Shown piece after piece: positions 310-23,179 of a stretch of 64,000 bases of DNA. Location of the stretch: NCBI GenBank assembly GCA_023150615.1, contig JAKLKO010000011.1, positions 62,001-126,000 on the forward strand. Direction: 5' to 3'. Made by a program: the position numbers and the translations under genes. The stretch comes from Phycisphaerae bacterium (GTDB lineage: Bacteria; Planctomycetota; Phycisphaerae; UBA1845; UTPLA1). Every line of letters starts with the position of its first letter. Position 1 is the first letter of the stretch. Below the pieces are notes generated by a model. That model was given only the letters and a program-made list of their open reading frames with translations, did not search any database and was not told the origin of the DNA.

Positions 310-2916
310 ATGCCTTCAGCGCATGCGAAGAACTGTCGCGACGCGCGTGGACTGCGCGGCGGGCGGCTTTCTGCGCAGGCGCGACGATTCGGGCGGCTCG
401 CGGCGTTCGCGGCGTTCGCCGGGCTTTCGGGCTGTTCACTCTTTCAGCAGACCTACGTCGCCCGCTACCACGGCGACGACCGCATTCTGGTCATCGAAGT
501 CCTCGAAGACGATCTGGTCCGGTTTGAACTGCTGCATGTCTCCGACGCTGCCGGCGTTGCCGGTCGGATTCCCGTGACGCCGATGGTCGAGCGGCGCTCT
601 TTTCGTGGTCCGGCGAGATTGCGCGACAATCGTCGCGGGATGATCGAGACTGCGGACCTGCGGATCGAGGTGGACGAGCCATCGCTGGCGGTCACGATCT
701 CGGCGCGGTCCGATCGCCGGGACGCCGAGCGCGTCACGATGTTTCCGCTTGAATCGGGCAACGGCCGGCTTCGCCTCGGCCTGCGCGCCGACTGGGTCCG
801 GCACGCGTACGGTCTGGGTCAGCAATTCCTGGAACCCGGGCGGACCGACGGAGACTGGCTCGGCCAGGTTCGCCGTCCGGCGTCGAGCTTCGGCAACGGG
901 CTGGTGAAGTTCAACGGCGGATCGGTCGGGAACACGCAGTTCCCGATCCTGATTGCCGAAGGTCCGCGCGGGGCGTTCGGCGTGTTCGTGGATGACGTTC
1001 ACGCGCAGATGTGGGACTTCACAAAATCGCCGTGGGACGTGCAGATCGCCTGCGACGTCACGGCGTGGTACTTCCTCGGCGGCGACGATCTGCGCGACAT
1101 CCGGCGCGACCAGATGGAGCTCGTCGGGCGGCCACCCGTCCCGCCGCGGAAGATGTTCGGCCTGTGGGTCTCGGAATACGGCTACGACGATTGGGCCGAA
1201 CTCACTGCGGCGCTCGCATCGCTGCGCTCGAACGGCTTTCCGGTCGACGGTTTCGTGCTCGATTTGCAGTGGTTCGGCGGCATCGCGAAGGAATCGGAGT
1301 TGAGCCGCATGGGCCGGTTGGCGTGGGACGAGTCGCGTTTCGTCGATCCGGCGGGTCGGGTGGCGGCGCTGGAGCAGGAACACGGCGTCGGTCTGATGCT
1401 GATCGAGGAGTCGTACGTCAGCCGCGGACTGTCGGAATACGAGGTGCTGCGGAAGCACGGCTGCCTCGTGCAGCGTTGCGATACGGATGAGCCCGTCGAT
1501 TTCGTCGACTGGTGGGGCGCGGGCGGCATGCTGGACTGGATCAACGATGCCGGGGCCGACTTCTGGCATGACTGGAAGCGACTGCCGCACATCGAGATGG
1601 GCGTGCTCGGGCACTGGACCGATCTCGGGGAGCCGGAGCGGTTCGATCCGCGCGGCTGCTACTTCGGCGGCGAGGATCGGCCGAAACGCCCGCACGCGGC
1701 GGTGCACAATCTCTACAACTTCAAGTGGGCCGAGAGCATCGCCCGCGGGTATCGACGGCACGGCCTGACGCGGCGGCCGTTCATCCTGACGCGTTCGGGC
1801 ACGAGCGGGGTTCAGCGCTTCGGCGCGGCGATGTGGTCCGGCGACATCGCGTCGAATCTCTCGAGCCTAGCGGCGCACCTTCAGGCGCAGATGAACATGT
1901 GTATGTCGGGCGTCGACTACTACGGCTCGGACATCGGCGGGTACTACCGTCCGGCGCTCGATGGCGACGCGAACGAGTGCTACACGCGCTGGTTCGCGCA
2001 CGGAGCGCTGTTCGACGTCCCGGTGCGCCCGCACACGGCGAATCTCGAGGACCGGTACGAGACCGCGCCGGACCGCATCGGCGACGTGCGATCCAATCTC
2101 GCCAGTCTCCGGCGGCGCTACGAGCTGATCCCATACCTCTATTCGCTGGCGCACCGCGCGTGGCGCGACGGCGAGCCGGTGTTTCCGCCGGCGTTTCACG
2201 AGTTTGGACGCGACAGCCTGCTGGCCGGAGTCGGCAGTCTCAAGATGATCGGCCGCGACGTGCTGGTGGCCTGCGTGCCGGAGTACCACCTGGACACGCA
2301 CGATGTCTACCTGCCCGCCGGGCGCTGGTACGACTACGACTCGCACGACGTCTTTGACAGCGATGGGGGCGTCGTGCCGGACGTACCGCTGCGGCGCGAC
2401 GGGCTGTTCCGACTTCCGATGTTCGTCCGCGCCGGGGCGATCCTGCCGCTGATGTACGTGGATGAGAAGACGATGAACGCCTTCGGCCGGCGGACCGACG
2501 GGACGGTGCGCGACGAGCTTCGGGTCCGCGTGTACGGCGATGCACGGAGTAGCTCGTTCACGCTGTTCGAGGACGATGGTCGAACGATCGGCTATCAATC
2601 CGGCGCGGTCCGCGCGACGGAGATCACGCAGGTCCGGCGCGAACAGCGGGTCCGCGTGACGATCGGGCGGGCCGAGGGCACGTACGAAGGAGCGCCGGTC
2701 GATCGCGACAACGTGGTGATTCTCGTGACGGACGCGGCGGCGCGGGTCTCGGCTGTGCAACTCGACGGCCGCGAGCTGCCGCGGTGGGCAACCGACGCCG
2801 AGTTCGACGGCGCGCCGCGTGGCTGGCATCAGCCGGACGCCGGACCGGCGAAGGCCAAGTCCGGCCGCATGCCGGTGCGCGATCGCAAGGTCTTCGACTT
2901 CGAGTTGGGGGGCTGA
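310..2916 (+). CDS. GH31 family alpha-glycosidase, lipoprotein
   Basis: About 868 residues. The start at 310 is chosen because AAGGAG (294-299) sits 10 bases upstream; the frame is open back to 214. The N-terminus has an Arg-rich stretch, a hydrophobic segment and a lipobox ending LSGC, so the protein is probably a membrane-anchored lipoprotein. The family is shown by WTDLGEP with the expected nucleophile Asp near residue 438, and by AMWSGDIAS with the expected acid/base Asp near residue 512. Both match the GH31 catalytic pair in the (beta/alpha)8 barrel. A C-terminal beta-sandwich follows (VRAGAILPL region onward). GH31 enzymes cleave alpha-glucosides or alpha-xylosides; the substrate cannot be told from sequence alone. 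It appears monocistronic, between clpB and the flagellar block. Confidence 0.9.
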   Translation: MPSAHAKNCRDARGLRGGRLSAQARRFGRLAAFAAFAGLSGCSLFQQTYVARYHGDDRILVIEVLEDDLVRFELLHVSDAAGVAGRIPVTPMVERRSFRGPARLRDNRRGMIETADLRIEVDEPSLAVTISARSDRRDAERVTMFPLESGNGRLRLGLRADWVRHAYGLGQQFLEPGRTDGDWLGQVRRPASSFGNGLVKFNGGSVGNTQFPILIAEGPRGAFGVFVDDVHAQMWDFTKSPWDVQIACDVTAWYFLGGDDLRDIRRDQMELVGRPPVPPRKMFGLWVSEYGYDDWAELTAALASLRSNGFPVDGFVLDLQWFGGIAKESELSRMGRLAWDESRFVDPAGRVAALEQEHGVGLMLIEESYVSRGLSEYEVLRKHGCLVQRCDTDEPVDFVDWWGAGGMLDWINDAGADFWHDWKRLPHIEMGVLGHWTDLGEPERFDPRGCYFGGEDRPKRPHAAVHNLYNFKWAESIARGYRRHGLTRRPFILTRSGTSGVQRFGAAMWSGDIASNLSSLAAHLQAQMNMCMSGVDYYGSDIGGYYRPALDGDANECYTRWFAHGALFDVPVRPHTANLEDRYETAPDRIGDVRSNLASLRRRYELIPYLYSLAHRAWRDGEPVFPPAFHEFGRDSLLAGVGSLKMIGRDVLVACVPEYHLDTHDVYLPAGRWYDYDSHDVFDSDGGVVPDVPLRRDGLFRLPMFVRAGAILPLMYVDEKTMNAFGRRTDGTVRDELRVRVYGDARSSSFTLFEDDGRTIGYQSGAVRATEITQVRREQRVRVTIGRAEGTYEGAPVDRDNVVILVTDAAARVSAVQLDGRELPRWATDAEFDGAPRGWHQPDAGPAKAKSGRMPVRDRKVFDFELGG

Positions 2917-3031
2917 CGATCGGTTGCGCCGCACTGGCGAAACCGGCCGCGGCGGCGGTATTTCCTGCGCATGATGCGGTGCGCTCCGGGGAGGCGGTGA
3001 GAGCGCCCGCCGGCATGAGTTCTGCGTTCCG

Positions 3032-3068
3032 GTTAAATCGTAAAGCATTTTAAATTAAGTACTTACGA
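3032..3068. other. AT-rich patch upstream of the flagellar promoter
   Basis: A run of about 37 bases that is strikingly AT-rich for this genome, including TTTTAAATTAA. It holds a weak inverted repeat, CGTAA at 3039-3043 and TTACG at 3063-3067. It ends about 50 bases before the candidate sigma-54 promoter at 3117. That is where IHF-like bending or activator binding would be expected. Its function is inference; only the composition and repeat are seen. Confidence 0.35.
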
Positions 3069-3116
3069 TCGGATGGCTGGGTTTGCGCACGCGGCTGGAC
3101 GGTCCCGGCTGACTCG

Positions 3117-3131
3117 TGGCATGGGGGTTGC
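3117..3131 (+). promoter_or_regulatory. Candidate sigma-54 (-24/-12) promoter for the flagellar block
   Basis: The sequence TGGCATGGGGGTTGC matches the sigma-54 consensus TGGCAYG-N4-TTGC, with GG and GC separated by exactly 10 bases (GG at 3118-3119, GC at 3130-3131). Transcription would start near 3143, about 250 bases before flgF. No comparable site was found elsewhere in the block. An activator of the FlrC/FleQ/NtrC type would be required; none is encoded in the window. Confidence 0.6.
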
Positions 3132-3183
3132 CAAGTGGCCCGCGTCGCCGCGGTGCAATGCGCCGGCAGGAGGCATGGCGACG

Positions 3184-3396
3184 GTGCGGTTGGAGACGCG
3201 ATTGAACTTCGTTCGAGCCGACGCGATTGACGCGCACAGTCCGGCGCCGCTCCCGACACTCGCCTGGGACCGGCTCGGGGCTCGCATTCGTGCGTGCGCG
3301 TTTCTGGCGACGACGTGGCGACTCGCCGACGCCACGAAGCTCTCGAACGCCGCGGTGTCGGAGGCGCCGCGGAACGATGCGGTGGAACTCGCATGA
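3184..3396 (+). CDS. Possible small protein coupled to flgF
   Basis: An open frame of about 70 codons lies between the sigma-54 site and flgF. The GTG at 3184 has AGGAGG (3168-3173) 10 bases upstream. An in-frame ATG at 3175 lies only one base after that motif, so it is a poorer start. The stop overlaps the flgF start as ATGA (3393-3396), the arrangement seen again at flgA/flgH and flgJ/flgN. Third-position G+C is about 80 percent, similar to the flanking genes. No family was recognised and no signal peptide or motif is evident. It could instead be a non-coding leader. Confidence 0.33.
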   Translation: MRLETRLNFVRADAIDAHSPAPLPTLAWDRLGARIRACAFLATTWRLADATKLSNAAVSEAPRNDAVELA

Positions 3397-4151
3397 TCTA
3401 CGGCATCTGGCATTCGGCGGCCGGCATGCAGGTACAGGAGTACCGCCAGGCCGTCATTGCGAATAACCTCGCGAACGTCGACACGCCGGCGTACAAGCCG
3501 GACGTCGTCGCGATTGTCGAGCGCCCGGTGGCATCCGCCACGGGCGCGATCCCCGGCGCGCGCCATCCGATCCTCGACCGCCTCACGGGCGGGTTGTTCG
3601 AGACGCCGACCCGCACGGACTTTTCGGCGGGAGCGATTGAACCCACGCACAACGCGCTCGATCTCGCGATCATTGAGGACGGTTTCTTCCGCGTCGAAAC
3701 CGTCGACGGGCCGCGACTGACGCGCGATGGCCGGCTCACGGTGCGCGATGATGGAACGCTCGTGACCGTCGCCGCCGGGCTGCCGATCCTCGATCGCGCC
3801 GGCCAGTCGATCCGGGTCAATGCGCGCGACGCGTCGGCCGTGCGGATCGACGACGCCGGGACGGTCCGGCAGGGGGCCGCCGTGCTCGGTCGGCTCGATC
3901 TGGTCGGCGTCGCCGATCCGCAGCAGCTCACGAAGGTCGGGCGCAATCTTTTCGACTCAGGGACGCAACGGCTCGATCCGGCGGGCGGTGTGATTCGCTC
4001 GAATGCGGTGGAGCAGTCAGCGGCCAGTCCGGTCACGAGTCTGGTGCAGATGATCGCTGCGTCGCGCGCGTACGAGTTGAACGCAACGATGATCTCGATG
4101 CAGGACGCGACGCTTCAGCGCGTGGTGAACGACCTGGGCCGGCTGGGGTGA
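3393..4151 (+). CDS. flgF: Flagellar basal-body rod protein FlgF
   Basis: 252 residues, starting MIYGIWHSAAGMQVQ. FlgF is a proximal-rod subunit exported through the flagellar type III apparatus. The N-terminal rod motif ANNLANVDTPAYK is clear, as are the central LDLAIIEDGFFRVE segment and the C-terminal coiled helix ending LNATMISMQDATLQRVVNDL. Both termini form the D0 coiled coil. It precedes flgG by 31 bases and is shorter than FlgG, which is the usual FlgF/FlgG order and size relation. The longer open frame back to 3294 is not needed, because family N-termini begin at this Met. Confidence 0.9.
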   Translation: MIYGIWHSAAGMQVQEYRQAVIANNLANVDTPAYKPDVVAIVERPVASATGAIPGARHPILDRLTGGLFETPTRTDFSAGAIEPTHNALDLAIIEDGFFRVETVDGPRLTRDGRLTVRDDGTLVTVAAGLPILDRAGQSIRVNARDASAVRIDDAGTVRQGAAVLGRLDLVGVADPQQLTKVGRNLFDSGTQRLDPAGGVIRSNAVEQSAASPVTSLVQMIAASRAYELNATMISMQDATLQRVVNDLGRLG

Positions 4152-4182
4152 TCGCCGGTCGCGGTGAAAGGGCAGGACTCGC

Positions 4183-4992
4183 ATGGGCATTCAGGCGCTG
4201 TACACGGCCGCGACGGGCATGCAGGCGCTCGACTTCAAGCTCAACGTGGTGGCCAACAACCTCGCCAATATCGAGACGGTCGCGTTCAAGAAGTCGCGCG
4301 TCAACTTCGAGGACATCTTCTACCAGGCCCTCGAAGAGCCTGGGAAGCGCAACGCCCTCGACGCTCCGACGCCGACGGGCAAGCTCGTCGGACTCGGCGT
4401 GCAGGTCTCCGGCACGCAACTCGACTTCCGGCAAGGCTCGTTCGACATCACGAGCCAGGCGCTCGATCTCGCGATTCAGGGCGACGGGCTGTTCCAGGTC
4501 CAGGCGATCCTCGACGGCCAGGAGCAGATCGCCTACACGCGCGCCGGCAACTTCACGCTCAATGCCCTCGGGGAGATCGTGCTCGCCAACAGCGTCGGCT
4601 CGCGTCTCGAGCCGGTCATCACGATCCCGCAGGACGCCGTCGAGATCGTGGTCAACCAGCAGGGGCTCGTGCAGGTGCGGACGCAAGGCTCGGCGCAGTT
4701 CTCCGACGTTGGACAGATTCAGCTCGCGCGGTTCATCAACTCCGCGGGGCTCAAGCAGGTCGGGCGGAACCTCTTCCAGGAGACCGAGGCCTCCGGCCCC
4801 CCGATCCTCGGCAACCCGACGCAGGACGGCCTGGGCGAGATCCAGCAGGGTCAGCTCGAGCTGTCGAACGTCGATCCGGTCCGCGAGTTGGTGGAGCTGA
4901 TCCGCACGCAGCGATCGTTTGAGTTGAACTCGCAGTCGATCCAAAGCTCGGACCAGGTGCTCCAGACGATCAACAACCTCCGGCGGTTCTAA
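4183..4992 (+). CDS. flgG: Flagellar basal-body rod protein FlgG
   Basis: 269 residues, close to the usual FlgG length of about 260. FlgG forms the distal rod that crosses the periplasm and both rings. Evidence is the canonical start MGIQALYTAATGMQA, the rod motif VVANNLANIETVAFKKS, the LDLAIQGDGLFQV segment, and the C-terminal IRTQRSFELNSQSIQSSDQVLQTINNL helix region. The region around residues 45-65 (FEDIFYQ, then a loop) is the FlgG-specific insertion that distinguishes the straight rod from the hook. It follows flgF in the same transcript and is 18 bases before flgA. Confidence 0.95.
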   Translation: MGIQALYTAATGMQALDFKLNVVANNLANIETVAFKKSRVNFEDIFYQALEEPGKRNALDAPTPTGKLVGLGVQVSGTQLDFRQGSFDITSQALDLAIQGDGLFQVQAILDGQEQIAYTRAGNFTLNALGEIVLANSVGSRLEPVITIPQDAVEIVVNQQGLVQVRTQGSAQFSDVGQIQLARFINSAGLKQVGRNLFQETEASGPPILGNPTQDGLGEIQQGQLELSNVDPVRELVELIRTQRSFELNSQSIQSSDQVLQTINNLRRF

Positions 4993-5010: not shown

Positions 5011-6141
5011 ATGACGAACCGACGCATGAACAGCACGCTGCGAACCGCGGTCCGATGGCTCATCGCCGCCGCCGGACTGTTCGGCGCATCGTACGCGATC
5101 GGCCAGGAGGTCCGGATCTGGCCGACGGCCGTCGTTTCCGCGCCCGAGGTTCGCCTTCGCGACGTGGCGTCGATCCGCGGCGGAAACGCGTGGACCGCGG
5201 CGCGACTCGCCGAGGTCGTCGTGAATCCGCAGCCGCCCGAGTACGGCATGATCGTCGTCGATCTGGCCGCGGTTCGGTCGGCGATCGCGGGATCGAAGCT
5301 CAATGCGGCGCACGTCCGGCTGATCGGCGCAAGCGCGTGCGCGGTGCGCTGCATTCGACGGGAGCCGGGCGATCCGCCCGCTGCGCCGAGCGCGGATGCG
5401 GTGCCGACCGTGGAATCGCCGCCGATCGCATCGGCCGAGGCGCCGCGCGAACCGGCCGCCGCGCCGGTCACGTTTGACGGGCCGCCGGCCGCGGCGAACT
5501 CGCTCGAGGCGGCCGTTCGCGAGTTCGTGGCGCGGCGTTTGCCGATCGACGGGGGGCGCGTGTCGATCCGCTTCAGCGCGGCGTCGGCCTCGAATCTCCG
5601 GCAGGCCGAAGTCGGCGCGCGGTTCAACGTGCGATCGCGCGAGCGCTTGCCGCTCGGGCTTGTCGGGTTCGACGTGACGGTCGAGCGCGCGGCGCAGCGG
5701 GACCAAGCGCTGAGCGTGTTTGCGGAAGTGTCGCTGACGCGGCCGGTCGTGGTCGCGCGGCGCGCGATCAACCGCGGGCGCGTGATTTCATCGGACGACG
5801 TCGCGCTGGAGGAGCGGACGTTTGCCCGCGCCGACGACCTGGGCATTACGGACGCGCGGGTCGCACTGGGGCAGGAGGCGAAGAACTTCATCCGCCCGGG
5901 CGGTCTGGTCCTGGTCCGGGACCTGCGGCACGCGCCGCTCGTCCGCCGCGGCGATCTTGTTCACGTCATCAGCCGCCGCGGCGCGCTGACCATCAAGTCG
6001 GTTGCCCGTGCCGTAGGCGAAGGGGGCCTGGGCGACGCCGTCACGGTGCGTAACGACGCGACGCGCGAATCGTTCGAGGCCACGGTCGCGGGGGAGCGCC
6101 TGGTCTGCATCGGATCGCCGTCGGAGGTTGCGTCGCAATGA
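5011..6141 (+). CDS. flgA: Flagellar P-ring assembly chaperone FlgA
   Basis: 376 residues. A signal peptide is visible at about residues 10-32 (RWLIAAAGLFGASYAIGQ), so the product is periplasmic, as expected for the FlgI chaperone. The C-terminal third contains the SAF/FlgA domain, beginning PVVVARRAINRGRVISSDD and followed by FIRPGGLVLVRDLR and a conserved end region with GDAVTVRND. The protein is longer than the roughly 220-residue enterobacterial FlgA. A Pro/Ala-rich linker (about residues 120-165) separates an N-terminal domain from the SAF part. The last bases overlap the flgH start (ATGA), suggesting coupled translation. Confidence 0.9.
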   Translation: MTNRRMNSTLRTAVRWLIAAAGLFGASYAIGQEVRIWPTAVVSAPEVRLRDVASIRGGNAWTAARLAEVVVNPQPPEYGMIVVDLAAVRSAIAGSKLNAAHVRLIGASACAVRCIRREPGDPPAAPSADAVPTVESPPIASAEAPREPAAAPVTFDGPPAAANSLEAAVREFVARRLPIDGGRVSIRFSAASASNLRQAEVGARFNVRSRERLPLGLVGFDVTVERAAQRDQALSVFAEVSLTRPVVVARRAINRGRVISSDDVALEERTFARADDLGITDARVALGQEAKNFIRPGGLVLVRDLRHAPLVRRGDLVHVISRRGALTIKSVARAVGEGGLGDAVTVRNDATRESFEATVAGERLVCIGSPSEVASQ

Positions 6142-6917
6142 AACGCATCCACTGGAAGTCCGAACTTGCGGCCGGCGCCGTCGTCATCGCGGCGCTGTGG
6201 TTCCTGATCACGGTGGCCGCGCACGGCCAGACTTCGTCGCTGTACCTGCGGGCGCAGGCCGACGCAATGGTCCGGGCCGCGGCGACGACGCAACCCGTCG
6301 CGCCGGACGGCGGCATCCCGGTCGACGCCGGCGCGCTGCAACCCGTCGATCCGAACTCCAACGTGGTGCTTCAGTCGCAGTCGTACATCTCCGTGCTGCC
6401 GCCCGAGCCGCGGCGGTTCAAGGTGCATGACCTGGTCAACATCGTCGTGCGGCACCAGCTCCGCTATCGCGCCGACGGCCGGCTGGAGCAGAACCGCACG
6501 TGGAAGTTCGAGGCCGAGCTTGCCGAGTGGTTCCGGATCCACGACCGGAAGTGGCAGCAGCAGGAGTTTCCGACGGGCAATCCGCAGGTGGATTTCGAGT
6601 TGACGGACAATCGGCGCAGCACGGGCCGCAATCAGCGCCAGGACGAACTCACGACGCGGATCGCGGCGGAGGTCGTCGACGTCAAGCCGAACGGCACGCT
6701 CGTGTTGCAGGCTACGGCGAGGTACCGGCACGAGGAGGAGGACCAGACGATTACGCTGACCGGGATCTGCCGCAGCGAGGACATCAGCGCCGACAACTCG
6801 ATCCTGAGCGACAAGATCGCGAACCTCGACGTGTCGACGGTCAACGAAGGTTCGGTGCGCGATACGACGAAGCGCGGCATCATCCCGCGCGTCTTTGACC
6901 TGGTGAAGCCGTTCTGA
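6138..6917 (+). CDS. flgH: Flagellar L-ring protein FlgH, apparently not a lipoprotein
   Basis: 259 residues. FlgH forms the outer-membrane L ring around the rod. The family part is clear: LYLRAQADAM near residues 35-44, a central VHDLVNIVVRHQ segment, ELTTRIAAEVVDVKPNGTLVLQA, and the ending RGIIPRVFDLVKPF. The N-terminus has a hydrophobic segment (about 11-28) but no cysteine, whereas most FlgH proteins carry a lipobox Cys at this point. A Thr-Thr-Gln-Pro linker lies at residues 50-53. The start overlaps the flgA stop, and the stop overlaps the flgI start by one base. Confidence 0.9.
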   Translation: MKRIHWKSELAAGAVVIAALWFLITVAAHGQTSSLYLRAQADAMVRAAATTQPVAPDGGIPVDAGALQPVDPNSNVVLQSQSYISVLPPEPRRFKVHDLVNIVVRHQLRYRADGRLEQNRTWKFEAELAEWFRIHDRKWQQQEFPTGNPQVDFELTDNRRSTGRNQRQDELTTRIAAEVVDVKPNGTLVLQATARYRHEEEDQTITLTGICRSEDISADNSILSDKIANLDVSTVNEGSVRDTTKRGIIPRVFDLVKPF

Positions 6918-7996
6918 TGCGAGGACGCATGGACACCCTCCGACTCCGAACTGCGGCGCTGATCGCTGTTGCGATCGCCGTGCCCGCCGAGGCGACGCGC
7001 ATCGGCGACGTGACGCACCTCAAGGGGCGGCGCGACAACAAGCTTCAGGGCCTGGGGCTGGTGATCGGCCTGCCGGGCACCGGCGACGGCGGCAAGTACG
7101 CGCCGTCGATTCAGGCGTTGGCGTCGATGCTGCAGAAGTTCGCGAATCCGGTCGCGCCGGAGCTGCTCAAGGACACCAAGAACGTCGCCATCGTCGCGGT
7201 CGAGGTGGTCCTGCCCGAGAACGGCGTCCGCGAGGGCGACCGCGTCGATGCGCAGGTCTCCGCCATCGGCGCGGCGAAGAGCCTTTCGGGCGGGCGGCTG
7301 CTGCTGGCACCGCTTCAGGGGCCGGACCTCGGCGCGGTATTCGCCTTCGCCAGCGGGCCGGTCGTCGTCGGCGATCCGAAGGCCGGCACGACGGGCGTCG
7401 TGCGGCAGGGCGCAACGATGGAGGCGGACGTCACGCATTTCTACATCGACGACGACCGCGTCACGCTCGTGCTCGAGGATGCGCACGCGAGCTGGGCGCT
7501 GGCCGCGACGATCGCGCAGCTCGTCAACGAGGAACTTTCGCCGCCGGGACAGGTCCAGCCGATCGCCCGCGCGATCGACCCGAAGAATGTCGAGGTCATC
7601 ATTCCGCCGGCGGAGCGTTCGTCGCCGGCGGCGTTCATCGCGGCAGTCGAGACGATCGAGCTTCTCGTTCCGCCGAGCGAGGCGCGCGTGACGATCAATC
7701 GCCGCAAGGGCACGGTGGTCATTACGGGCGAGGTGGAGATCGGTCCGGCGCTGATCTCGTACAACGGTATGACGATCAGCACGGTGCAACCCGCGCCGGT
7801 CGGCACGCCCGATGCGCCAGTCGTGACGGAGAAGACGGTCGCCGTGCTTGATCCCGGTCGCCGGGGCGGCGCGCGGTTGCGCGATCTGGTCGATGCGCTC
7901 AACGCGCTGCACCTGCCCGCGCGGGACCTGATTGCCATCATCGAAGACCTGAAGCGCAGCGGAAAGCTGCACGCGAAGCTGATTGTCGAGGAGTAG
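6917..7996 (+). CDS. flgI: Flagellar P-ring protein FlgI
   Basis: 359 residues, the usual FlgI length. FlgI forms the periplasmic P ring in the peptidoglycan layer. A signal peptide ends near PAEATRIGD. The hallmark GLGLVIGLPGTGDGGKYAPS follows, and the C-terminus has the typical DLVDALNALHLPARDLIAIIEDLKRSGKLHA pattern. The first ATG (6917) overlaps the flgH stop as TGATG. A second in-frame ATG at 6929 lies close behind a GAGGA and is an equally possible start, giving a shorter signal peptide. It lies between flgH and flgJ in the same orientation. Confidence 0.95.
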   Translation: MRGRMDTLRLRTAALIAVAIAVPAEATRIGDVTHLKGRRDNKLQGLGLVIGLPGTGDGGKYAPSIQALASMLQKFANPVAPELLKDTKNVAIVAVEVVLPENGVREGDRVDAQVSAIGAAKSLSGGRLLLAPLQGPDLGAVFAFASGPVVVGDPKAGTTGVVRQGATMEADVTHFYIDDDRVTLVLEDAHASWALAATIAQLVNEELSPPGQVQPIARAIDPKNVEVIIPPAERSSPAAFIAAVETIELLVPPSEARVTINRRKGTVVITGEVEIGPALISYNGMTISTVQPAPVGTPDAPVVTEKTVAVLDPGRRGGARLRDLVDALNALHLPARDLIAIIEDLKRSGKLHAKLIVEE

Positions 7997-8006
7997 CGCA
8001 CACGCG

Positions 8007-8435
8007 ATGGACGCCCGTTTTCACAGCCCGTCGATGCTGAACGTGACAACGCCGTACGCGCTGCGGACGGGGATGCACGGTGCGCTGCGGCCGCCCGCGT
8101 CGAGAAGCGCCGGGGATGACGCAGCGCCGCCGTCGGGCGTGCCGGGCGACAAGTCGGGCATCGCCGCGGCGCAGGCGGCGCTGCTGCGCCGCCGGATCGG
8201 CGAGCTGTCGGGCACGGTGTTCTACACGACGCTCATCAAGGAAATGGAGAAGAGCACTTTCCGCACGAAGCTCATGCACGGCGGACGCGGCGAAGAGGCG
8301 TTTCGGGGACAGCTCGCGCTGGAACTCGGCAAGTCGATCGGCGGCGCGGCGAACGACCCGGTCGCCCAACGGCTCTATTCGGCCGCGAAGCGCCAGTTGA
8401 CGCGCGCGGCGCCGGCCGGGGAGAAGCGTGCATGA
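8007..8435 (+). CDS. flgJ: FlgJ-type rod-binding protein (N-terminal domain only)
   Basis: 142 residues. This is the rod-capping domain of FlgJ without the C-terminal muramidase domain of enterobacterial FlgJ, so peptidoglycan would have to be opened by a separate enzyme. The core FYTTLIKEMEKSTF, then GEEAFRGQLALELGKSI, is typical of the rod-binding family (PF10135). The start at 8007 is 10 bases after the flgI stop; a TTG at 7983 inside flgI was judged less likely. Its stop overlaps flgN as ATGA. Confidence 0.85.
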   Translation: MDARFHSPSMLNVTTPYALRTGMHGALRPPASRSAGDDAAPPSGVPGDKSGIAAAQAALLRRRIGELSGTVFYTTLIKEMEKSTFRTKLMHGGRGEEAFRGQLALELGKSIGGAANDPVAQRLYSAAKRQLTRAAPAGEKRA

Positions 8436-8947
8436 CCACGGTTGCCGCGACATGGGACTCGGTCGCGCTCGCCGAGCTGCTGCGCGGACTGACGTCGCTC
8501 CAGGAGGAGCTGACGACCGTGCTGGAGAGCAAGCTGGACGCCATGCGCCGCGCCGATACGCCCGCAATGCAGTCCGCGACCGCGCACGAGCGCCGGTTGC
8601 TGGACCGGCTGACGCAGCTTGACATCGAGCGGCACGCGATCGTCGCCCGCGCGGCCGAAGCGCTCGGGCTTCCCGATCGGGCGGGGCTGACCGTTCGTCG
8701 TGTCGCCGAGTCCTGCGGTGAGCCGGACCGAAGTCGTCTACTCGTTCTGGCCGAGGGGTTGCGGCAGAAGATGCTCCGCGTGGCCGAGCTGAATCGCGTC
8801 ATCGCCCTCGTGACGGGCGAGATGCTCGCGCATTACCGAACCGTCTTCACCGCCATGGCCCGCGGCGGGGAGGACTCCGGCGGGTATTCGCACCGCGGCC
8901 GGCCGCAGTCGGCTGCGGCGGTGCGTGTGCTCGATGCAGTGGGTTGA
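8432..8947 (+). CDS. flgN: FlgN-type chaperone for hook-filament junction proteins
   Basis: 171 residues, mostly helical with Leu/Glu heptads. The pattern LLRGLTSLQEELTTVLESKLDAMRR, followed by HERRLLDRLTQLDIERHAIV, fits the FlgN family. FlgN binds the C-termini of FlgK and FlgL in the cytoplasm and delivers them to the export gate. Position supports the call: it sits just before flgK (3 bases) and overlaps flgJ by 4 bases. FlgN proteins are poorly conserved, so the identity rests partly on context. Confidence 0.75.
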   Translation: MTTVAATWDSVALAELLRGLTSLQEELTTVLESKLDAMRRADTPAMQSATAHERRLLDRLTQLDIERHAIVARAAEALGLPDRAGLTVRRVAESCGEPDRSRLLVLAEGLRQKMLRVAELNRVIALVTGEMLAHYRTVFTAMARGGEDSGGYSHRGRPQSAAAVRVLDAVG

Positions 8948-8950
8948 ACC

Positions 8951-10663
8951 ATGGGACTGACGACCTCGGCATTGCAGATCGGACGCTCGGCGCTGCTGAG
9001 CTATCAGTCCGCGCTCCAGATCGCCGGCAACAACATCGCGAACGTCGGCAACCCGGACTACACGCGGCAGTCGGCGGCCCTCGTCGCGCTGCCCGGTCAA
9101 CCCGGTACGACGTACTCCCTCGGGAACGGTGTGACGCTCGGCGCGATCCGGCGCAACATCAGCGAGGCGGTGGAGGCGCGGCTGCGGCTGGCGGTCTCCG
9201 ACCGCGCCTCGGCCGACGCGGAGCGCAGCGGGCTGCTGCGGCTGGAGTCGGCGATCAATCTGCTCGGCGACACGAACCTCGGCACGCAGATCGAGTCGTT
9301 CTTCAACGCGTTCGCCGCGCTTCAGAACTCGCCCGACGACCTTGCCGCGCGGCAGCTTGTCATCACGCAGGGTCAGCGCATCAGCGAGGCCGTCCGCCGA
9401 CAGCGGAGCGACTTCCTCGCCATTCGCGACGACGCGATCACCGAGATCGAAAACGTCGTTGTGCGCGCGGACGCGATCGCGTCCGAGATCGCCGCGCTCA
9501 ACGTGCAGATCGTCGCCGCGGAGGCCGGCGCGGGCAGTCCGTCGGGGCCGCTCCGCGACCAGCGCGATGCCCTGCTGCGGGAGCTGGCCGATGTCCTGCC
9601 GGTCACCGTCCGCGAGCAGCCGAGCGGCGCGATCAACGTGTACATCGGCAGCGAGCCGCTCGTGCAGGCCGGTACGTCCGCCGGGCTGGAGACGGAGCGT
9701 ACGACGGATGCGAACGGCTTCGCGACCATTGAGGTGCGATTCAAGAGCAATCGCCACCTCGTCTCGCTGTCGAGCGGCCGGCTGGAGGGCCTCGCCGTGA
9801 CGCTCGATCAGCACTCGACGACTCAGCTCCTGCGGCTCGACCAGGTGGCGCAGGCGATCATCCGCGAGGTCAACCGCGTGCACGCGTCGGGGCAGGGCCT
9901 GCGCGGGTTCGCGTCGCTGGCCGGCGCCGGCCGCGTGGCCGACGCGAGCGTCGCGTTGAATTCCGCGGCGGCGGGGCTGGCGTTTCCGCCGAGGTCCGGC
10001 ACGTTTTTCATCGACGTGAAGGACCCGACGTCCGGCGCGGTGACGCGGACGCAGATTCACGTCGACCTCGACGGCATCGGCGCGCCGGACACGACGCTCG
10101 GTTCGCTGGCCGCCGACATCTCGGCGAATGTGCCGGGCGTGACCGCGACGGTCCAGCCGGACGGGACGCTGCGGCTGACCGCCTCCGGCGGCGCGACGTT
10201 CACCTTCGCCGACGATACGTCGGACGTGCTCGCGGCGCTGGGCCTGAACACGTTCTTCACGGGCGCGGATAGCACGGACGTGGCCGTCAACCCGTTGATT
10301 GCGTCGAATCCCGACTTTGTGGCCAGCGCGCTGACGGGCCTGCCCGGCGACGGCGACAACGCCGGCCGGCTCGCCGGAATCGTCAGCAAGGCGCTCGACG
10401 CGCTCGGCGGCGCATCGATCGCGGAATTCCAGAACGCCAGCGCGACGATCCAGGCCGTCGGTTCGTCGGCGGCCGGGAACGCGCTGACCGCGTCGGAGGC
10501 GATTCTGTCATCGCTACAGGCGCAGCGGGAGGGCGTGGCGGGCGTGAACCTCGACGAAGAGACCGTTCGGCTGATTACGTATCAACGCGGTTTTCAGGGC
10601 GCGGCGCGCTATCTGACGGTCGTGGACGAGATGTTGCAGACGCTGTTGGGACTCGTGCGGTAG
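8951..10663 (+). CDS. flgK: Flagellar hook-associated protein 1, FlgK
   Basis: 570 residues, near the usual size of about 550. FlgK forms the first of two junction layers between hook and filament. The N-terminal D0/D1 region has the rod/hook motif AGNNIANVGNPDYTRQSA, and the C-terminal helix ends TYQRGFQGAARYLTVVDEMLQTLLGLVR, both diagnostic. The middle contains a variable beta-rich region with a DIDGIG/ADISANV-type Hook_IN-like segment. It follows flgN directly, and flgL starts 34 bases downstream. Confidence 0.95.
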   Translation: MGLTTSALQIGRSALLSYQSALQIAGNNIANVGNPDYTRQSAALVALPGQPGTTYSLGNGVTLGAIRRNISEAVEARLRLAVSDRASADAERSGLLRLESAINLLGDTNLGTQIESFFNAFAALQNSPDDLAARQLVITQGQRISEAVRRQRSDFLAIRDDAITEIENVVVRADAIASEIAALNVQIVAAEAGAGSPSGPLRDQRDALLRELADVLPVTVREQPSGAINVYIGSEPLVQAGTSAGLETERTTDANGFATIEVRFKSNRHLVSLSSGRLEGLAVTLDQHSTTQLLRLDQVAQAIIREVNRVHASGQGLRGFASLAGAGRVADASVALNSAAAGLAFPPRSGTFFIDVKDPTSGAVTRTQIHVDLDGIGAPDTTLGSLAADISANVPGVTATVQPDGTLRLTASGGATFTFADDTSDVLAALGLNTFFTGADSTDVAVNPLIASNPDFVASALTGLPGDGDNAGRLAGIVSKALDALGGASIAEFQNASATIQAVGSSAAGNALTASEAILSSLQAQREGVAGVNLDEETVRLITYQRGFQGAARYLTVVDEMLQTLLGLVR

Positions 10664-10697: not shown

Positions 10698-12656
10698 ATG
10701 GCGATCAACCCGGTTACTGCGAGCCGCGTGACGCACCGCCTTCAGACGGGCGCTCTGCTCGAGCAGCTCCGCGCCAACAGCCTGCGCCTGTTCAATCTGC
10801 AGCAGCAGCTCTCGACCGGCCGGCGACTCCTCACGGCCGGCGACGATCCGGTCGGCGCGAGCCGCGTCGTCCGCTACGACCAGTTGCTGACGCGGCAGGA
10901 CCAGATCCTCGCGAACCTCACGGCCGCGGACAAGTTCCTCTCCGCCACCGACGCGGCGATCACGGACGTGAGCGGCCTGCTGATCGAGGCGGCCGGGATC
11001 GCGAGCGAGCAGGTGGGTTCGTTCCAGAGCGCCGATCAGCGGGCGGCGGCGGCGACGCTGGTCGATGGCATCATCACGCAGCTCGAGGCGATCGGAAACC
11101 GCGAGTTCCAGGGCCGCTACCTCTTCGCCGGTCGACAGGCGCAGCAGCGCCCGCTCGACTCGATTCTCGGCCGCGTCACGCTTCGCGGCGACCGGGGCGA
11201 CCTGCGGACGCGCGCCGCGATCGATACGACGGCCACAGCCGGCAGCGATCCGTTGCTGGCGTACAACCTGACCGTGGATCGGCTCTTCGATCTGGCGTCC
11301 GCGCCGATCGCGGCCTCGGCCGATCTCGATCCGATTTTGACGTCGGACACGCGGATTGCCGATCTCGGCGGCGCGCTCGGACAGGGCGTCCGGCCCGGCA
11401 CCATTCGATTCACCGAGCAGGCCGGACCCGATGTCACCTTCGACGTCGATTTGACGGGCGTCGATACCGTCGGCGACCTGATCGCACGATTCAACCAGGC
11501 AGCGCTCGACTCCGGCTCGACGCTGACGCTCTCGATTTCCGGCAATCACCTGCGCCTCGACTCGGGCGGCGGCTTCAACGTCGTCGTCGCCGACGTCGGC
11601 GACGGCTTCGCCGCCGACGATCTCGGGCTGACGACGAACGGCTCAGCATCGCCGTTCGACGGCGCTGACACGCAGCCGGCTCTGCGGTTGACGACGGGGC
11701 TGGCCGACCTCTACGGCGGCGCGGGACTGGCGCTGGCCTCCGGCGTTCGCATCACCAACGGCGGCCTGTCGGGCACCGTCACATTCGCCGGTGCGACGAC
11801 GGTGCAGGACGTGATCAACCGGCTGAACTCCGCGAACCTCGGCATTCAGGCGCGGATCAACGACGCTGGAACGGGCATCGACGTGCTCAATCTCGTCTCG
11901 GGCGCCGACCTGCGGATCGGCGAGAACGGCGGCAACGACGCCGCGCGGCTCGGCATCCGCACGCTGAACGGTAGTACGCGCCTGGCGGACCTCAATGGCG
12001 GCCGCGGCGTCACGACGGTCGCGGGGGACGACCTGCTCATCACCGACGGCACGGGCCTGAGCTTCGGCGTCGATCTGAGCAGCGCCGTCACGGTCGACGA
12101 CGTGATCGCGGCCATCAACGCCGCGGCCGCGGGGGCGGGATCGACACTTACGGCCGGCCACGCGCTGATCGGCAACGGGTTGCGCCTCGGCGACGCGTCG
12201 GGGACGACGGCGATTCGGGTCGAGCGGGCGAACCTGTCCGCCGCGGCCGACGACCTCGGCCTGCTCGCTTCGCCGGGCACGGCGACGGAACTCATCGGCG
12301 CGGACGTGCATCCGCGTCGCGCCAGCGGCGTCTTCTCAGCGCTGTACGAACTTCGCGATTCGCTGCTGACCAACGACACGAAGGGCATCACGTCGTCGGG
12401 CGAGAAGCTCGCGTCGCTGCAGCGGTACGTCGCATCGGTGCAGGGCGGTGTGGGCAGCCGCGCGGCGAGCGTCCGCGAACGGATTTCGCTCACGGAGGAC
12501 GCGGTCGCCGCGACGCGCATCCTGCTGTCGGAGGTGAAGGACGTCGATTTCACGGAGGCGGTGACACGATTTCAACAGGCCCAGGTCGCGTTGCAGGCGA
12601 ATCTGCAGACCGGCTCGGCCGTGCTCAATCTCTCGCTGTTGGACTTTCTGCAATGA
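10698..12656 (+). CDS. flgL: Flagellar hook-associated protein 3, FlgL (enlarged)
   Basis: 652 residues, about twice the enterobacterial FlgL (317). The flagellin-like N-terminus (LQQQLSTGRRLLTAGDDPVGASR) and C-terminus (KDVDFTEAVTRFQQAQVALQANLQ...SLLDFLQ) define FlgL. The extra length lies in the middle, where three similar Hook_IN-like units can be seen near residues 242-270, 358-378 and 455-478. Each has a beta hairpin followed by TVGDLIARFN, TVQDVINRLN or TVDDVIAAIN. These probably form additional surface-exposed domains. It closes the junction-protein genes before fliW. Confidence 0.93.
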   Translation: MAINPVTASRVTHRLQTGALLEQLRANSLRLFNLQQQLSTGRRLLTAGDDPVGASRVVRYDQLLTRQDQILANLTAADKFLSATDAAITDVSGLLIEAAGIASEQVGSFQSADQRAAAATLVDGIITQLEAIGNREFQGRYLFAGRQAQQRPLDSILGRVTLRGDRGDLRTRAAIDTTATAGSDPLLAYNLTVDRLFDLASAPIAASADLDPILTSDTRIADLGGALGQGVRPGTIRFTEQAGPDVTFDVDLTGVDTVGDLIARFNQAALDSGSTLTLSISGNHLRLDSGGGFNVVVADVGDGFAADDLGLTTNGSASPFDGADTQPALRLTTGLADLYGGAGLALASGVRITNGGLSGTVTFAGATTVQDVINRLNSANLGIQARINDAGTGIDVLNLVSGADLRIGENGGNDAARLGIRTLNGSTRLADLNGGRGVTTVAGDDLLITDGTGLSFGVDLSSAVTVDDVIAAINAAAAGAGSTLTAGHALIGNGLRLGDASGTTAIRVERANLSAAADDLGLLASPGTATELIGADVHPRRASGVFSALYELRDSLLTNDTKGITSSGEKLASLQRYVASVQGGVGSRAASVRERISLTEDAVAATRILLSEVKDVDFTEAVTRFQQAQVALQANLQTGSAVLNLSLLDFLQ

Positions 12657-12729: not shown

Positions 12730-13182
12730 ATGATCATCAAGACGTCCCGGTTCGGCGGAATCGAAGTCGATTCCCAGCTCTTTCTGAACTTCCCGAAGGG
12801 CCTGCTCGGCTTTCCGGACGACCACGAGTTCGCGCTGATCCAGACCGGCGAGAACAGCGGGTTCTACTGGATGCAGAGCGTCGGACGGCCCGACCTGGCC
12901 TTCGTCGTTTGCGATCCGCGCTTGTTCGTGCCGGACTACAAGCTCAGCATCAAGCCGGACGATCTCGCGGCGATCGGCCTGACGGACGCGGAGGGCTGCC
13001 AGGTTTTCGTCATCGTAAACAAGGTGAACGACGTCCTGACGGGCAACCTTCAAGGCCCGCTGGTCGTCAACGTCTCCACGCGCGTCGGGCGGCAGCTCGT
13101 CCTGGCAGACAAGCGCTATACGACCCGGCATTCGCTGATGCGGATTCCGTCGCGTCCGGAGCAGGTGTCCAAGACCGCGTAA
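12730..13182 (+). CDS. fliW: FliW, flagellin-binding antagonist of CsrA
   Basis: 150 residues. The FliW family is shown by FPKGLLGFPDDHEFALI near the start and by FVVCDPRLFVPDY in the middle. In the characterised Bacillus system FliW binds flagellin or CsrA. When flagellin is secreted, FliW is freed to sequester CsrA and so relieve repression of flagellin translation. A GGGAG lies about 8 bases before the ATG. csrA and flagellin follow immediately, so all three partners of the switch are adjacent here. The C-terminal extension after HSLMRIP is short and unremarkable. Confidence 0.93.
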   Translation: MIIKTSRFGGIEVDSQLFLNFPKGLLGFPDDHEFALIQTGENSGFYWMQSVGRPDLAFVVCDPRLFVPDYKLSIKPDDLAAIGLTDAEGCQVFVIVNKVNDVLTGNLQGPLVVNVSTRVGRQLVLADKRYTTRHSLMRIPSRPEQVSKTA

Positions 13183-13223
13183 GTGTGGTCGTGATTGGAC
13201 GGTATTGCCCGGTCCGAGTCGCG

Positions 13224-13229
13224 TATAAT
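13224..13229 (+). promoter_or_regulatory. Candidate -10 element before csrA-flagellin
   Basis: A perfect TATAAT within otherwise GC-rich DNA, 167 bases upstream of csrA and 42 bases after fliW. No -35 box is found at 16-18 bases: TTGCCC at 13205 is too close (13) and TTGGAC at 13195 too far (23). It may give csrA and flagellin a transcript separate from fliW. Confidence 0.4.
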
Positions 13230-13395
13230 AGAAGAATCACAGACTCGCCTGGCGGCGATCCGTTCCGCGTCACGGGGCCGTTTTCACAGGCTCGCCGGTC
13301 GAACCGACGGCCGCGTAGTGCCCATTCAGCGTTCGGGCACGCTGCTCCCGTGAAATGGTAGTAACGCATCGGCATGGCCCAGGAAGGAGCCGCGG

Positions 13396-13653
13396 ATGTT
13401 GGTGCTTTCCAGACAACGTGACGAGACGATCATGATCGGCGACGACGTCGAGATCACGGTCGTCGACATCCGGGGTGACAAGGTGCGACTCGGCATCACC
13501 GCGCCGCCCCATATCCCCGTGCATCGCAAGGAAGTGTACGACGCGATTCAACGCGAGAATCGCGCCGCCACAAACGTTCGACCCGAAGACCTCCCGCAGT
13601 TGCCGCCCGACGGGACTGCGGGTCGCGGTCCGGATCCGTCGCGACCGCGCTAG
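13396..13653 (+). CDS. csrA: CsrA translational regulator
   Basis: 85 residues. It starts MLVLSRQRDETIMIGDDVEI and contains VRLGITAPPHIPVHRKEVY, which are the two RNA-contacting strands of CsrA, including the Arg near residue 44. CsrA dimers bind ANGGAN hexaloops in mRNA leaders and block ribosome access. The C-terminal tail after about residue 60 is Pro/Arg-rich and longer than in E. coli (61 residues). Its own leader has AGGAAGGAG at 13381-13389, a good ribosome site. Located between fliW and flagellin, it probably represses the latter through the hairpin at 13729-13748. Confidence 0.95.
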   Translation: MLVLSRQRDETIMIGDDVEITVVDIRGDKVRLGITAPPHIPVHRKEVYDAIQRENRAATNVRPEDLPQLPPDGTAGRGPDPSRPR

Positions 13654-13750: not shown

Positions 13751-15190
13751 ATGGCGCGTATTAACTCGAACATCTCGGCCCTGACCGCGCAGAGGCAGCT
13801 CTCGCGCTCCTACGACCGGCTCGGCACGACGCTCGAGCGGCTCTCGACCGGTCTGCGCATCAATCACGGCTCCGATGATCCGGCCGGATTGATCGTTTCG
13901 GAGACGCTGCGCGCCGAAATCGCCGGCGTGCGGCAGGCCATCACCAACTCCCAGCGCGCCAGCAACATCGTCGCCACGACCGAGGCGGCCCTCAGCGAGG
14001 TCGCGGCGCTGCTCAACGATGTTCAGGATCTCGTTGTCGAGGCGGCCAACTCGGGGGCGATTTCCGAGGACGAGATCCGCGCCAACCAGGTGCAGATCGA
14101 CTCGGCCATTGAGTCCATCACGCGGATCGCCAACACGACCACGTTCGCCGGGCGAAAGCTGCTCGATGGATCGCTCGACTATGTGACGAGCGGCGTCGAT
14201 CCTGCGACGATCGAGGTGCTCGAGGTCCGCGCCGCGGCCTTCGGCAACCAGTCCTTCATCCCCGTGACGGTCAACGTGACACAGTCCGCGCAGCACGGCG
14301 AGCTGCTGTTCGCCACGAGCCAGATCAACCAGTCGGTCACGATCGAGGTCGCCGGAAACAACGGCGTCGTCGCGCTGTCGTTCATCTCCGGCACGACCGC
14401 GAGCGCCATCGCCGCGGCCGTCAACGTCGTCTCCGATGCGACGGGCGTTGCGGCACGGCTCATCAACGCCGGAAACGCGCAGTCCGGCATCGTGCTCGAG
14501 AGCCTCGGCTTCGGCTCGGACACGTTTGTCCAGGTCGACGTCCTGCCCTCCAGCGCCGGGACGTTCGTCACGACCGGCGCGGGCGGCGCGCCGACCAAGC
14601 GCGACCAGGGCCGCGATGCGTCGGCCACGATCAACGGCGCGGTGTCGATCGGCCGCGGCCGCGAGCTGATCCTCAATACGACCGGGCTGAACGTCGCACT
14701 GACCATCACTGAGGCCGCGAACACCATCGGCTCGACGACCTTCGCCATCACCGGCGGGGGCGCGCTCTTCCAACTCGGGCCGGGGATCAGCACCAACCAG
14801 CAGGTCAACTTCGGCGTGCGGTCCATCGCCGCCTCGCGACTCGGAAACGGGACCGTCGGTTTCCTCTCGCAGATCGGGACCGGTCACGAATTCTCGCTCG
14901 TCAACGGCCAGTCGGCCCGCGCCGGGCAGATCATCGGCGAGGCGATCCGGCAAGTCTCGCTGCTGCGCGGCCGGCTCGGCGCGTTCGAGAAGAACACGAT
15001 CGATACGAACGTGAATCAGCTCCAGATCACGCTGGAGAACCTGACCTCGAGCGAATCGGCGATCCGCGATGTCGACTTCGCCGCCGAGACGAGCGAGCTG
15101 ACGCGCAACCAGATCCTCGTGCAGGCCGGCACGAGCGTGCTCGCGCTGGCCAACCAGACGCCGCAATCCGTCCTCGCGCTGCTCCGCTAA
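13751..15190 (+). CDS. fliC: Flagellin
   Basis: 479 residues. This is the filament subunit, exported by the flagellar type III system. The N-terminal D0/D1 (MARINSNISALTAQRQLSRS, then LSTGLRINHGSDDPAG) and the C-terminal D1/D0 (LTSSESAIRDVDFAAETSEL, then LALANQTPQSVLALLR) are classical. The centre, about residues 150-400, replaces the D2/D3 domains with a Hook_IN-like unit (GTTASAIAAAVNVVSDATGV) and beta-rich sequence. The start is set by AGGGAGGA 8 bases upstream; the frame extends back to 13724 but family members begin MARINSN. It is the last gene of the flagellar block. Confidence 0.97.
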   Translation: MARINSNISALTAQRQLSRSYDRLGTTLERLSTGLRINHGSDDPAGLIVSETLRAEIAGVRQAITNSQRASNIVATTEAALSEVAALLNDVQDLVVEAANSGAISEDEIRANQVQIDSAIESITRIANTTTFAGRKLLDGSLDYVTSGVDPATIEVLEVRAAAFGNQSFIPVTVNVTQSAQHGELLFATSQINQSVTIEVAGNNGVVALSFISGTTASAIAAAVNVVSDATGVAARLINAGNAQSGIVLESLGFGSDTFVQVDVLPSSAGTFVTTGAGGAPTKRDQGRDASATINGAVSIGRGRELILNTTGLNVALTITEAANTIGSTTFAITGGGALFQLGPGISTNQQVNFGVRSIAASRLGNGTVGFLSQIGTGHEFSLVNGQSARAGQIIGEAIRQVSLLRGRLGAFEKNTIDTNVNQLQITLENLTSSESAIRDVDFAAETSELTRNQILVQAGTSVLALANQTPQSVLALLR

Positions 15191-21238: not shown

Positions 21239-23179
21239 ATGCGACGACGCGCGAAATCCGTTTACGGCCTGGCATGCCTTTTGCTGACATTCGGGGCGGC
21301 TGCGGCTCAGACGACGTACGTCGTCGATACGCCCCTTGACGAGGTTGACATCGTTCCCGGCGACGGCCTCTGCCTGACGCCGAACGGCAACTGCTCGCTC
21401 CGTGCCGCGTTCATGGAGGCCAACGCCAACAGCGGCATCGTCAACATCGTCTGCAACGTGGCGCAGCCGATCGTCCTGACCATCGGCGGATCGGACGATA
21501 CTTGCCTCGCGGGCGATCTGGACGTCAATCCGACCGCGCCGCTGTCCGATCTGCGCCTGTTCGGCGCCGGCGTGCAGGCCACCGTCATCGAGACCTCGTT
21601 TCCCGCAGGCTCGACGGAACGCATCCTCGACATCACCGGCGGAGCGACCAACGTCGCCGTCACCGTACAGGGCCTGACGATGCGACTCGGTCAGGATTCG
21701 TCCGGCGCGGGCGGCGGCGCGATCCTGCACAACGGTGGTTCGCTCAGCCTGATCGACGTCGACCTCAGCGACAACTCGACGACCAACCACGGCGGCGCGG
21801 TCCGCGCCAACCGGCCCGTCAGCATCGACAACTGCGGCTTTGTCTCCAATTCCGCCTCGGGCGACGGAGGCGGGCTTTACGTCGCCAGCGGACTGATCGT
21901 GCCCATCAGCAGCTTTACGCGATTCGAGAGCAACCTGGCGAACCGCGGTGGCGGCCTCATGGTCGCCTCGGGCGCGGCCGTCTCGATGGTCGGCGGCGAT
22001 TTCGCCTTCAACGATGCGACGCAGGGCGGCGGACTGCGCAGCCTCGGCACGATCGACGTCTTCGACGTCCTCTTCTACCGCAACCGCGCCCTCGGCGGCG
22101 GGAACGGCGGCGCGATCGCCGTTCAATCCCCCGGCACCGTCAACGTCTGGCGCTGCATCCTCGAATCCAACACGGCCGAGAACGGCGGCGGGGCGATCAA
22201 CAACCAGTTTTCCGGCGTCCTTCGGGTGACCGATTCGGCGTTTCTGCTGAACGCGGCCACGAACCTCGGCGGCGCGATCAGCAACGCCGGCGACGCGACC
22301 GTCGATCGCTGCGAGTTCACCAGCAACCGCTCCGACGGAACGGTCGCCAACGCGGCGGGCGGCGGTGCTGTCTACAACCAGAACGCGGCCGGCATCTTCC
22401 TCGCCGTCAATTCCACATTCTCGGGCAACACCGCGGTCTTCGGGTACGGCGGCGGGATCTGCAACGACTTTGCCGCGACGGTCGAGCTGAGCGCCTGCAC
22501 GCTCCTGCACCACGGCGCGCAAACCGGCAACAGCCTCTTCAACGGAAACACCCTCGGCACGACCAGCATCATGCGGATCATCGGCTCGGTCATCGACGAC
22601 ACGGCCGCGCCGCCCGGTGCGTTCGACAACATCGTCGCCGCGTCGCCCATCACCTCGTTCGGATACAACATCAACGGCGACGGCACCGGAATGCTCCCAG
22701 TCGCCGGCGATCAGTTCGGCACACCGGCGATGCCGCTCGATCCGATGCTTGGACCGCTCCAACTCAACGGCGGACCGACGCGAACGCATGAACCGCTGGC
22801 GGGCAGCCCGGCCATCGACCGCGGCATCTGCTCCGACGCAGCGGGCAACGTCATCACCGTCGATCAGCGCGGGTTCGTGCGGCCCGAGGACGGCGACGGC
22901 AACGGCTCGTTCGACTGTGACGTCGGCGCGGTCGAAGCACCGACCATCACGATCCCCCTCTGCGGCACCTGCCCCGGCGACATGGATGGCGACAACGACG
23001 TCGACGGCGGCGATGCGCAGGGCTTCATCGCCTGCTGGTTCGGCGGGACGCCCGCCGCGCCCGGCTGCGCGTGCAGCGACATGAACGGAAACGGCGTCTT
23101 CGATCCGGGCAACGTCGATCTCACGCTGTTCGCCGACAAGGTGCTCGGGATCAGCGACCCGATCCCGGCCTGCCCCTGA
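21239..23179 (+). CDS. Secreted beta-helix protein with CSLREA-type N-terminus and dockerin-like end
   Basis: About 646 residues. GGAGGAGG 8 bases before the ATG at 21239 fixes the start. A signal peptide ends near AAAAQTTYVV. Then come a CSLREA-like motif (GLCLTPNGNCSLRAAFMEAN), a long right-handed beta-helix built of Asn/Gly-rich rungs with repeated GG-G units (about residues 120-430), and a choice-of-anchor Q-like segment (LNGGPTRTHEPLAGSPAIDRG). The end holds two dockerin-like calcium motifs, DMDGDNDVDGGD and DMNGNGVFDPGN. It is probably an extracellular or surface adhesion/scaffold protein. The next gene also ends in dockerin-like repeats. No enzymatic residues are evident. Confidence 0.8.
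   Translation: MRRRAKSVYGLACLLLTFGAAAAQTTYVVDTPLDEVDIVPGDGLCLTPNGNCSLRAAFMEANANSGIVNIVCNVAQPIVLTIGGSDDTCLAGDLDVNPTAPLSDLRLFGAGVQATVIETSFPAGSTERILDITGGATNVAVTVQGLTMRLGQDSSGAGGGAILHNGGSLSLIDVDLSDNSTTNHGGAVRANRPVSIDNCGFVSNSASGDGGGLYVASGLIVPISSFTRFESNLANRGGGLMVASGAAVSMVGGDFAFNDATQGGGLRSLGTIDVFDVLFYRNRALGGGNGGAIAVQSPGTVNVWRCILESNTAENGGGAINNQFSGVLRVTDSAFLLNAATNLGGAISNAGDATVDRCEFTSNRSDGTVANAAGGGAVYNQNAAGIFLAVNSTFSGNTAVFGYGGGICNDFAATVELSACTLLHHGAQTGNSLFNGNTLGTTSIMRIIGSVIDDTAAPPGAFDNIVAASPITSFGYNINGDGTGMLPVAGDQFGTPAMPLDPMLGPLQLNGGPTRTHEPLAGSPAIDRGICSDAAGNVITVDQRGFVRPEDGDGNGSFDCDVGAVEAPTITIPLCGTCPGDMDGDNDVDGGDAQGFIACWFGGTPAAPGCACSDMNGNGVFDPGNVDLTLFADKVLGISDPIPACP

Follow-up and report, generated by a model that had tools for sequence, protein, structure and literature searches.

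A conserved, well-supported sigma-54 promoter ahead of the rod-ring flagellar genes of a Phycisphaerae bacterium, with a probable bend-type palindrome and a small gene in front of flgF

In a stretch of 64,000 nucleotides from a Phycisphaerae bacterium (the window), a block of flagellar genes follows a gene for a GH31 glycosidase, and the question arises from which promoter the block is transcribed and how far the transcript extends. An earlier note had proposed that a sigma-54-dependent activator turns on all twelve genes up to flagellin, or at least the rod-ring part. The block is composed of the following genes:

3393-4151, plus strand: flgF (NCBIfam FlgEFG subfamily; the flgF model itself stayed below its cut-off)
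4183-4992, plus strand: flgG (NCBIfam)
5011-6141, plus strand: flgA (Pfam ChapFlgA)
6138-6917, plus strand: flgH (profile match)
6917-7996, plus strand: flgI (profile match)
7983-8435, plus strand: ORF without family, between flgI and flgN, at the position of flgJ
8432-8947, plus strand: flgN (profile match)
8951-10663, plus strand: flgK (profile match)
10698-12656, plus strand: flgL (profile match)
12730-13182, plus strand: fliW (profile match)
13396-13653, plus strand: csrA (profile match)
13751-15190, plus strand: flagellin (profile match)

Relatives of flgF were present in 59 of the 61 genomes searched. The ORF at 7983-8435 yielded no match in Pfam or NCBIfam. The region ahead of flgF contains the following elements:

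2967-2979, plus strand: GCGCATGATGCGG, an imperfect copy of GCA-N5-TGC (one mismatch) and a candidate activator site, which lies 150 bp ahead of the sigma-54 site
3037-3069, no strand: AT-rich palindrome ATCGTAA-N19-TTACGAT, with the conserved and phased core GTAA-N19-TTAC at 3040-3066 (27 bp)
3117-3131, plus strand: sigma-54 -24/-12 element TGGCATGGGGGTTGC (TGGCATG-GGGG-TTGC), from sequence match, weight matrix, genome control and conservation
3143, plus strand: predicted transcription start, about 12 bp past the -12 GC, placed by sigma-54 promoter geometry
3168-3173, plus strand: Shine-Dalgarno sequence AGGAGG of the small ORF, from the sequence
3175-3396, plus strand: conserved small gene starting with ATG at 3175 (73 aa) or GTG at 3184 (70 aa), its stop overlapping the flgF start (ATGA)

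The proposed -24/-12 element, TGGCATG-N4-TTGC at 3117-3131, was borne out by the sequence: the GG and GC dinucleotides of TGGCATGGGGGTTGC are spaced 10 bases apart, and the element agrees with TGGCAY-N5-TTGC. Its spacer and -12 flank were uninformative. The counting of mismatches was uninformative as well (220 matches with 3 mismatches versus 259 expected), and therefore a weight matrix, a genome control and conservation were used in its place. With the matrix, which was built from general consensus frequencies and gives relative scores only, the element reached 16.0 bits and ranked second among the plus-strand scores of the window. This score was reached at three of about 128,000 positions on both strands, and comparable matches occurred about once in every 40 kb of strand. 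In the 4.1-Mb genome TGGCAYGN4TTGC was found 11 times, versus once for the reversed control, and several of these matches lie shortly ahead of genes, e.g., groES. These counts and the placement ahead of genes indicate that strong matches are few and that most of them carry meaning. The earlier claim that the block holds no other such site was nearly right, as the next best match, at 5528 inside flgA, scored 12.3 compared to 16.0. Elsewhere in the window, strong sigma-54-like matches were observed at 21270-21284 (plus strand), within the start of a gene for a secreted protein, and at 28355-28369 (minus strand), about 700 bp ahead of a minus-strand transporter gene. A scan of positions 2700-4400 for sigma-70 promoters and terminators found none, and an Rfam search revealed one tRNA elsewhere and nothing more.

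The closest relatives that bear a name belong to the Phycisphaerae. The DNA preceding flgF was compared in 54 genomes of Phycisphaerae type, including the genome under study. In a pattern search, 52 of the 54 loci had a sigma-54 site that precedes flgF in the same orientation, mostly 190-450 bp upstream, while two loci (L020 and L026) had no site by this pattern. About 37 loci had a score of at least 12, a level that was reached by 2% of shuffled regions, and named loci, some of them outside the first set, agreed on a site at this place. The comparison lends good support to the view that a real sigma-54 promoter, preserved in evolution, lies at 3117-3131. In one related family (L030, L032, L036, L038, L039, L040, L064 and L065) a reverse-strand sigma-54-like sequence, AGCAATT-N3/4-TGCCG, is kept about 25 bp ahead of the forward site, which suggests sigma-54 promoters in divergent orientation or, alternatively, an overlap with a regulatory site.

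The AT-rich patch next to the promoter, which had also been pointed out before, is real (GC content 0.53 compared to about 0.68), but its palindromic nature had been missed. Of 52 loci examined, 26 had the core, in the form GTAA-N19-TTA[CG], at 56-79 bp ahead of the sigma-54 site, versus 2.8 expected. In 61 whole genomes it was found 40 times at 25-50 bp ahead of TGGCAC, compared to 5 times in the control; a minority of the 40 matches lie at flgF, and most lie at groES, groEL, hsp20-like and other genes, the names of which were assigned by reading translated starts. The distances between core and site grouped at 52-56, 63-68 and 76-78 bp, i.e., with a period of about 11, and the p-value of this phasing is optimistic since related genomes were treated as independent. 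In the genome under study the combination of the palindrome with TGGCAY is unique. When both halves of the box interiors were read against the IHF consensus WATCAANNNNTTR, the agreement was 3.54 of 6 bases versus 2.50 in shuffled interiors; in the box ahead of flgF, one half has 5 of the 6 WATCAA bases plus TTA. Two members of the HU/IHF family are encoded in the genome, and an IHF site placed between the activator sites and the sigma-54 promoter is an established layout (PMC7962754, PMC3897727). Because of the phased recurrence at other sigma-54 promoters, the IHF-like interior, the HU/IHF genes and this layout, the patch is read as a probable symmetric IHF-type bend site for activator looping. 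A flagellum-specific activator site was rejected as an explanation because of the recurrence at chaperone genes, and CIRCE was rejected because its half-sites differ.

Two other explanations bear on these sequences. According to the first, the sigma-54 match would be a chance occurrence in a GC-rich genome, and the AT-rich patch would contain a housekeeping or sigma-28 promoter that serves flgF. The match frequency in the window would allow this, a fliA gene is encoded, and GTAA-N19-TTAC is spaced like a -35/-10 pair. However, relatives keep both the sigma-54 site and the box at fixed spacing, the scan around flgF revealed no sigma-70-type promoter, and the box, a palindrome, is found again at other sigma-54 promoters, so that a chance match is regarded as highly improbable. 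According to the second, the palindrome would be the site of a specific dimeric regulator, either activator or repressor, instead of a bend site. Its strict dyad symmetry and its helical phasing, which would also suit an activator touching the polymerase, are in accordance with such a regulator. In contrast, the class-wide occurrence ahead of genes as unrelated as those for chaperones, hsp20 and flgF fits a general architectural protein, and the interior matches WATCAANNNNTTR; a specific regulator is thus deemed somewhat unlikely, and the bend site remains the preferred reading. At six loci of relatives (L177, L178, L180, L184, L200 and L204) groES, groEL and hsp20-like genes were found with a sigma-54 site and a phased palindrome, which suggests that heat-shock genes are under sigma-54 control in this group.

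Further upstream, an exact GCA-N5-TGC palindrome was found in 40 of 52 regions preceding flgF, versus 4.1 in shuffles, and tandem copies 19-22 bp apart occurred in 19 of 52 regions, versus 0.005 in shuffles. In the relatives the tandem copies lie upstream at distances of about 150 and 170 bp. When whole genomes were searched for such pairs at 110-140 bp ahead of TGGCAC, 22 matches were obtained, 17 of them at flgF, compared to 10 in the control. This excess at flgF makes GCA-N5-TGC the best candidate for the site of the flagellar activator, and the tandem copies are likely to be its binding sites. The copy in the genome under study, GCGCATGATGCGG, has a mismatch and is thus a weak candidate only. 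The proteins required for such a system are encoded: the genome contains rpoN and 15 matches to Sigma54_activat, 10 of them strong. One of these genes adjoins flgBC on contig C11 and encodes a receiver domain, the AAA+ domain Sigma54_activat with GAFTGA, and the Fis-type helix-turn-helix domain HTH_8; it is preceded by a gene for a HisKA/HATPase histidine kinase. From a reading of its ORFs, this cluster contains fliE to flhA and more.

The distance between the sigma-54 site and flgF, which had been given as about 250 bases and taken as a leader, is 261 bp, but it is not empty and consists mostly of a small ORF. Codon usage between the site and flgF favours the frame of this ORF. In the relatives an ORF of 60-100 aa with the core DWxxLGxRIRxAAxxAxxxH is found at the same place, often starting 63-72 nt past the sigma-54 T, and its stop overlaps flgF as ATGA in 24 of 46 cases. 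With a profile HMM that was built without the sequence under study, its frame (E=1.9e-5) ranked first when all six frames of the window were searched. In non-duplicate named loci the profile matches were always on the plus strand and directly ahead of flgF, and the profile search did not find the ORF in the Planctomycetia, spirochaete and Bacillota loci examined. In all of 11 pairs pN was smaller than pS (pooled 0.26 versus 0.40). It could be argued that the ORF is a leader that is open by chance, as long open frames are usual in GC-rich DNA, the ends of the ORF are variable and its overall identity is low. Against this stand the conserved core DWxxLGxxIRxxA, the recovery in independent loci always at the same position, the pN/pS result, the codon bias and the frequent ATGA coupling. 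A chance frame is considered very unlikely, and computational analysis marks the small ORF as a coding, conserved gene. No family match was obtained in Pfam or NCBIfam. The structure model contains one confident helix (residues 31-63), while the remaining chain has low confidence, and it was too simple for a fold search; the protein is predicted to be a single soluble helix. FlgV, a small flagellar protein that has been reported in Phycisphaerae too, has two transmembrane helices (PMC11607428), and because of this difference in topology it was rejected as the identity of the small protein. As a guess, the small protein could act as an accessory factor when the rod is assembled, and less likely as a regulator.

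The computational results demonstrate conservation and phasing; they also show that the small ORF is coding and that the genes are present. An explanation with a probability of roughly 85% is that the small ORF, flgF, flgG, flgA, flgH, flgI and the following genes to flgL share an RpoN promoter that is served by an NtrC-family activator and an HU/IHF bend. RNA polymerase with RpoN would bind at 3117-3131, and the activator, most likely the one encoded beside flgBC with its kinase, would bind about 150 bp upstream. A protein of the HU/IHF family would bend the DNA at 3040-3066 and bring the activator onto the polymerase, which would lead to melting of the promoter. The first product would be a helical protein of 70-73 aa, translationally coupled to flgF, and one RNA would give rise to this small protein as well as to FlgF to FlgL.

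Control of basal-body genes by sigma-54 is widely known and common among swimming bacteria. In Vibrio and Pseudomonas, the middle flagellar genes are under sigma-54 control of the FlrBC/FleSR type. The genome under study shares with these systems a kinase and an NtrC-type regulator (GAFTGA) in an early flagellar cluster as well as a sigma-54 promoter ahead of rod, ring and hook-junction genes; here the host is of Phycisphaerae type, and to our knowledge neither the binding-site motif nor the small first gene has been described for FlrBC/FleSR. For the phylum, basal-body flagellar genes (in Planctomycetia) and chaperones have been predicted to be under sigma-54 (PMC12316311). Therefore, the promoter itself is ordinary and of a known type, and the new parts would be the small protein and the symmetric box. 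The study of the phylum does not appear to report the architecture of the flgF operon, the box, the tandem sites or the small ORF. The layout of distant activator sites, an intervening bend-type site and a -24/-12 element resembles the known UAS - IHF - sigma-54 arrangement (PMC7962754, PMC3897727). Unlike in those systems, the IHF-like consensus seems to be present on both halves of the 27-bp palindrome, an arrangement suited to a homodimer. A literature search did not find the symmetric phased box or the small protein family, which is no proof of novelty. The odds appear about even for the joint proposal that Phycisphaerae-type bacteria have a class-wide sigma-54 promoter grammar, with a phased palindrome bent by a homodimeric HU/IHF relative, and that an undescribed small protein family, made together with FlgF, stands first in their rod operon. 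The results would extend the sigma-54/NtrC flagellar cascade, with concrete sites, to a poorly studied planctomycete class, offer a testable architectural element common to the sigma-54 promoters of flagella and chaperones, and enlarge the list of flagellar parts by a small protein that is conserved and unannotated.

The two versions of the earlier proposal fared differently. Taken together, the conserved site, the regulators with rpoN and the NtrC-type activator, the bend-type box and the tandem activator sites of the relatives give good support to sigma-54 control of the rod-ring genes. The strong version, a single sigma-54 transcript that spans all twelve genes to flagellin, is unlikely. 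All genes are on one strand, those from the small ORF to flgL follow one another closely, and the gap to fliW is 74 bp. However, fliW and csrA are separated by 213 bp (13183-13395) with a TATAAT-like sequence at about 13226, and the genome has a gene for a FliA-type sigma factor. Because of this gap, it is doubtful that the sigma-54 transcript reaches flagellin, and csrA and flagellin are probably transcribed separately, possibly from a promoter of their own in 13183-13395. In the flagellar cluster on contig C11, a scan revealed no strict match to a sigma-54 site. A weak sigma-54-like sequence, CGGTACGGTCGTTGCA (C11:108524-108539, minus strand, L087), is located just ahead of flgB; its score of 12.4 is not beyond chance, and it might be a second flagellar sigma-54 promoter.
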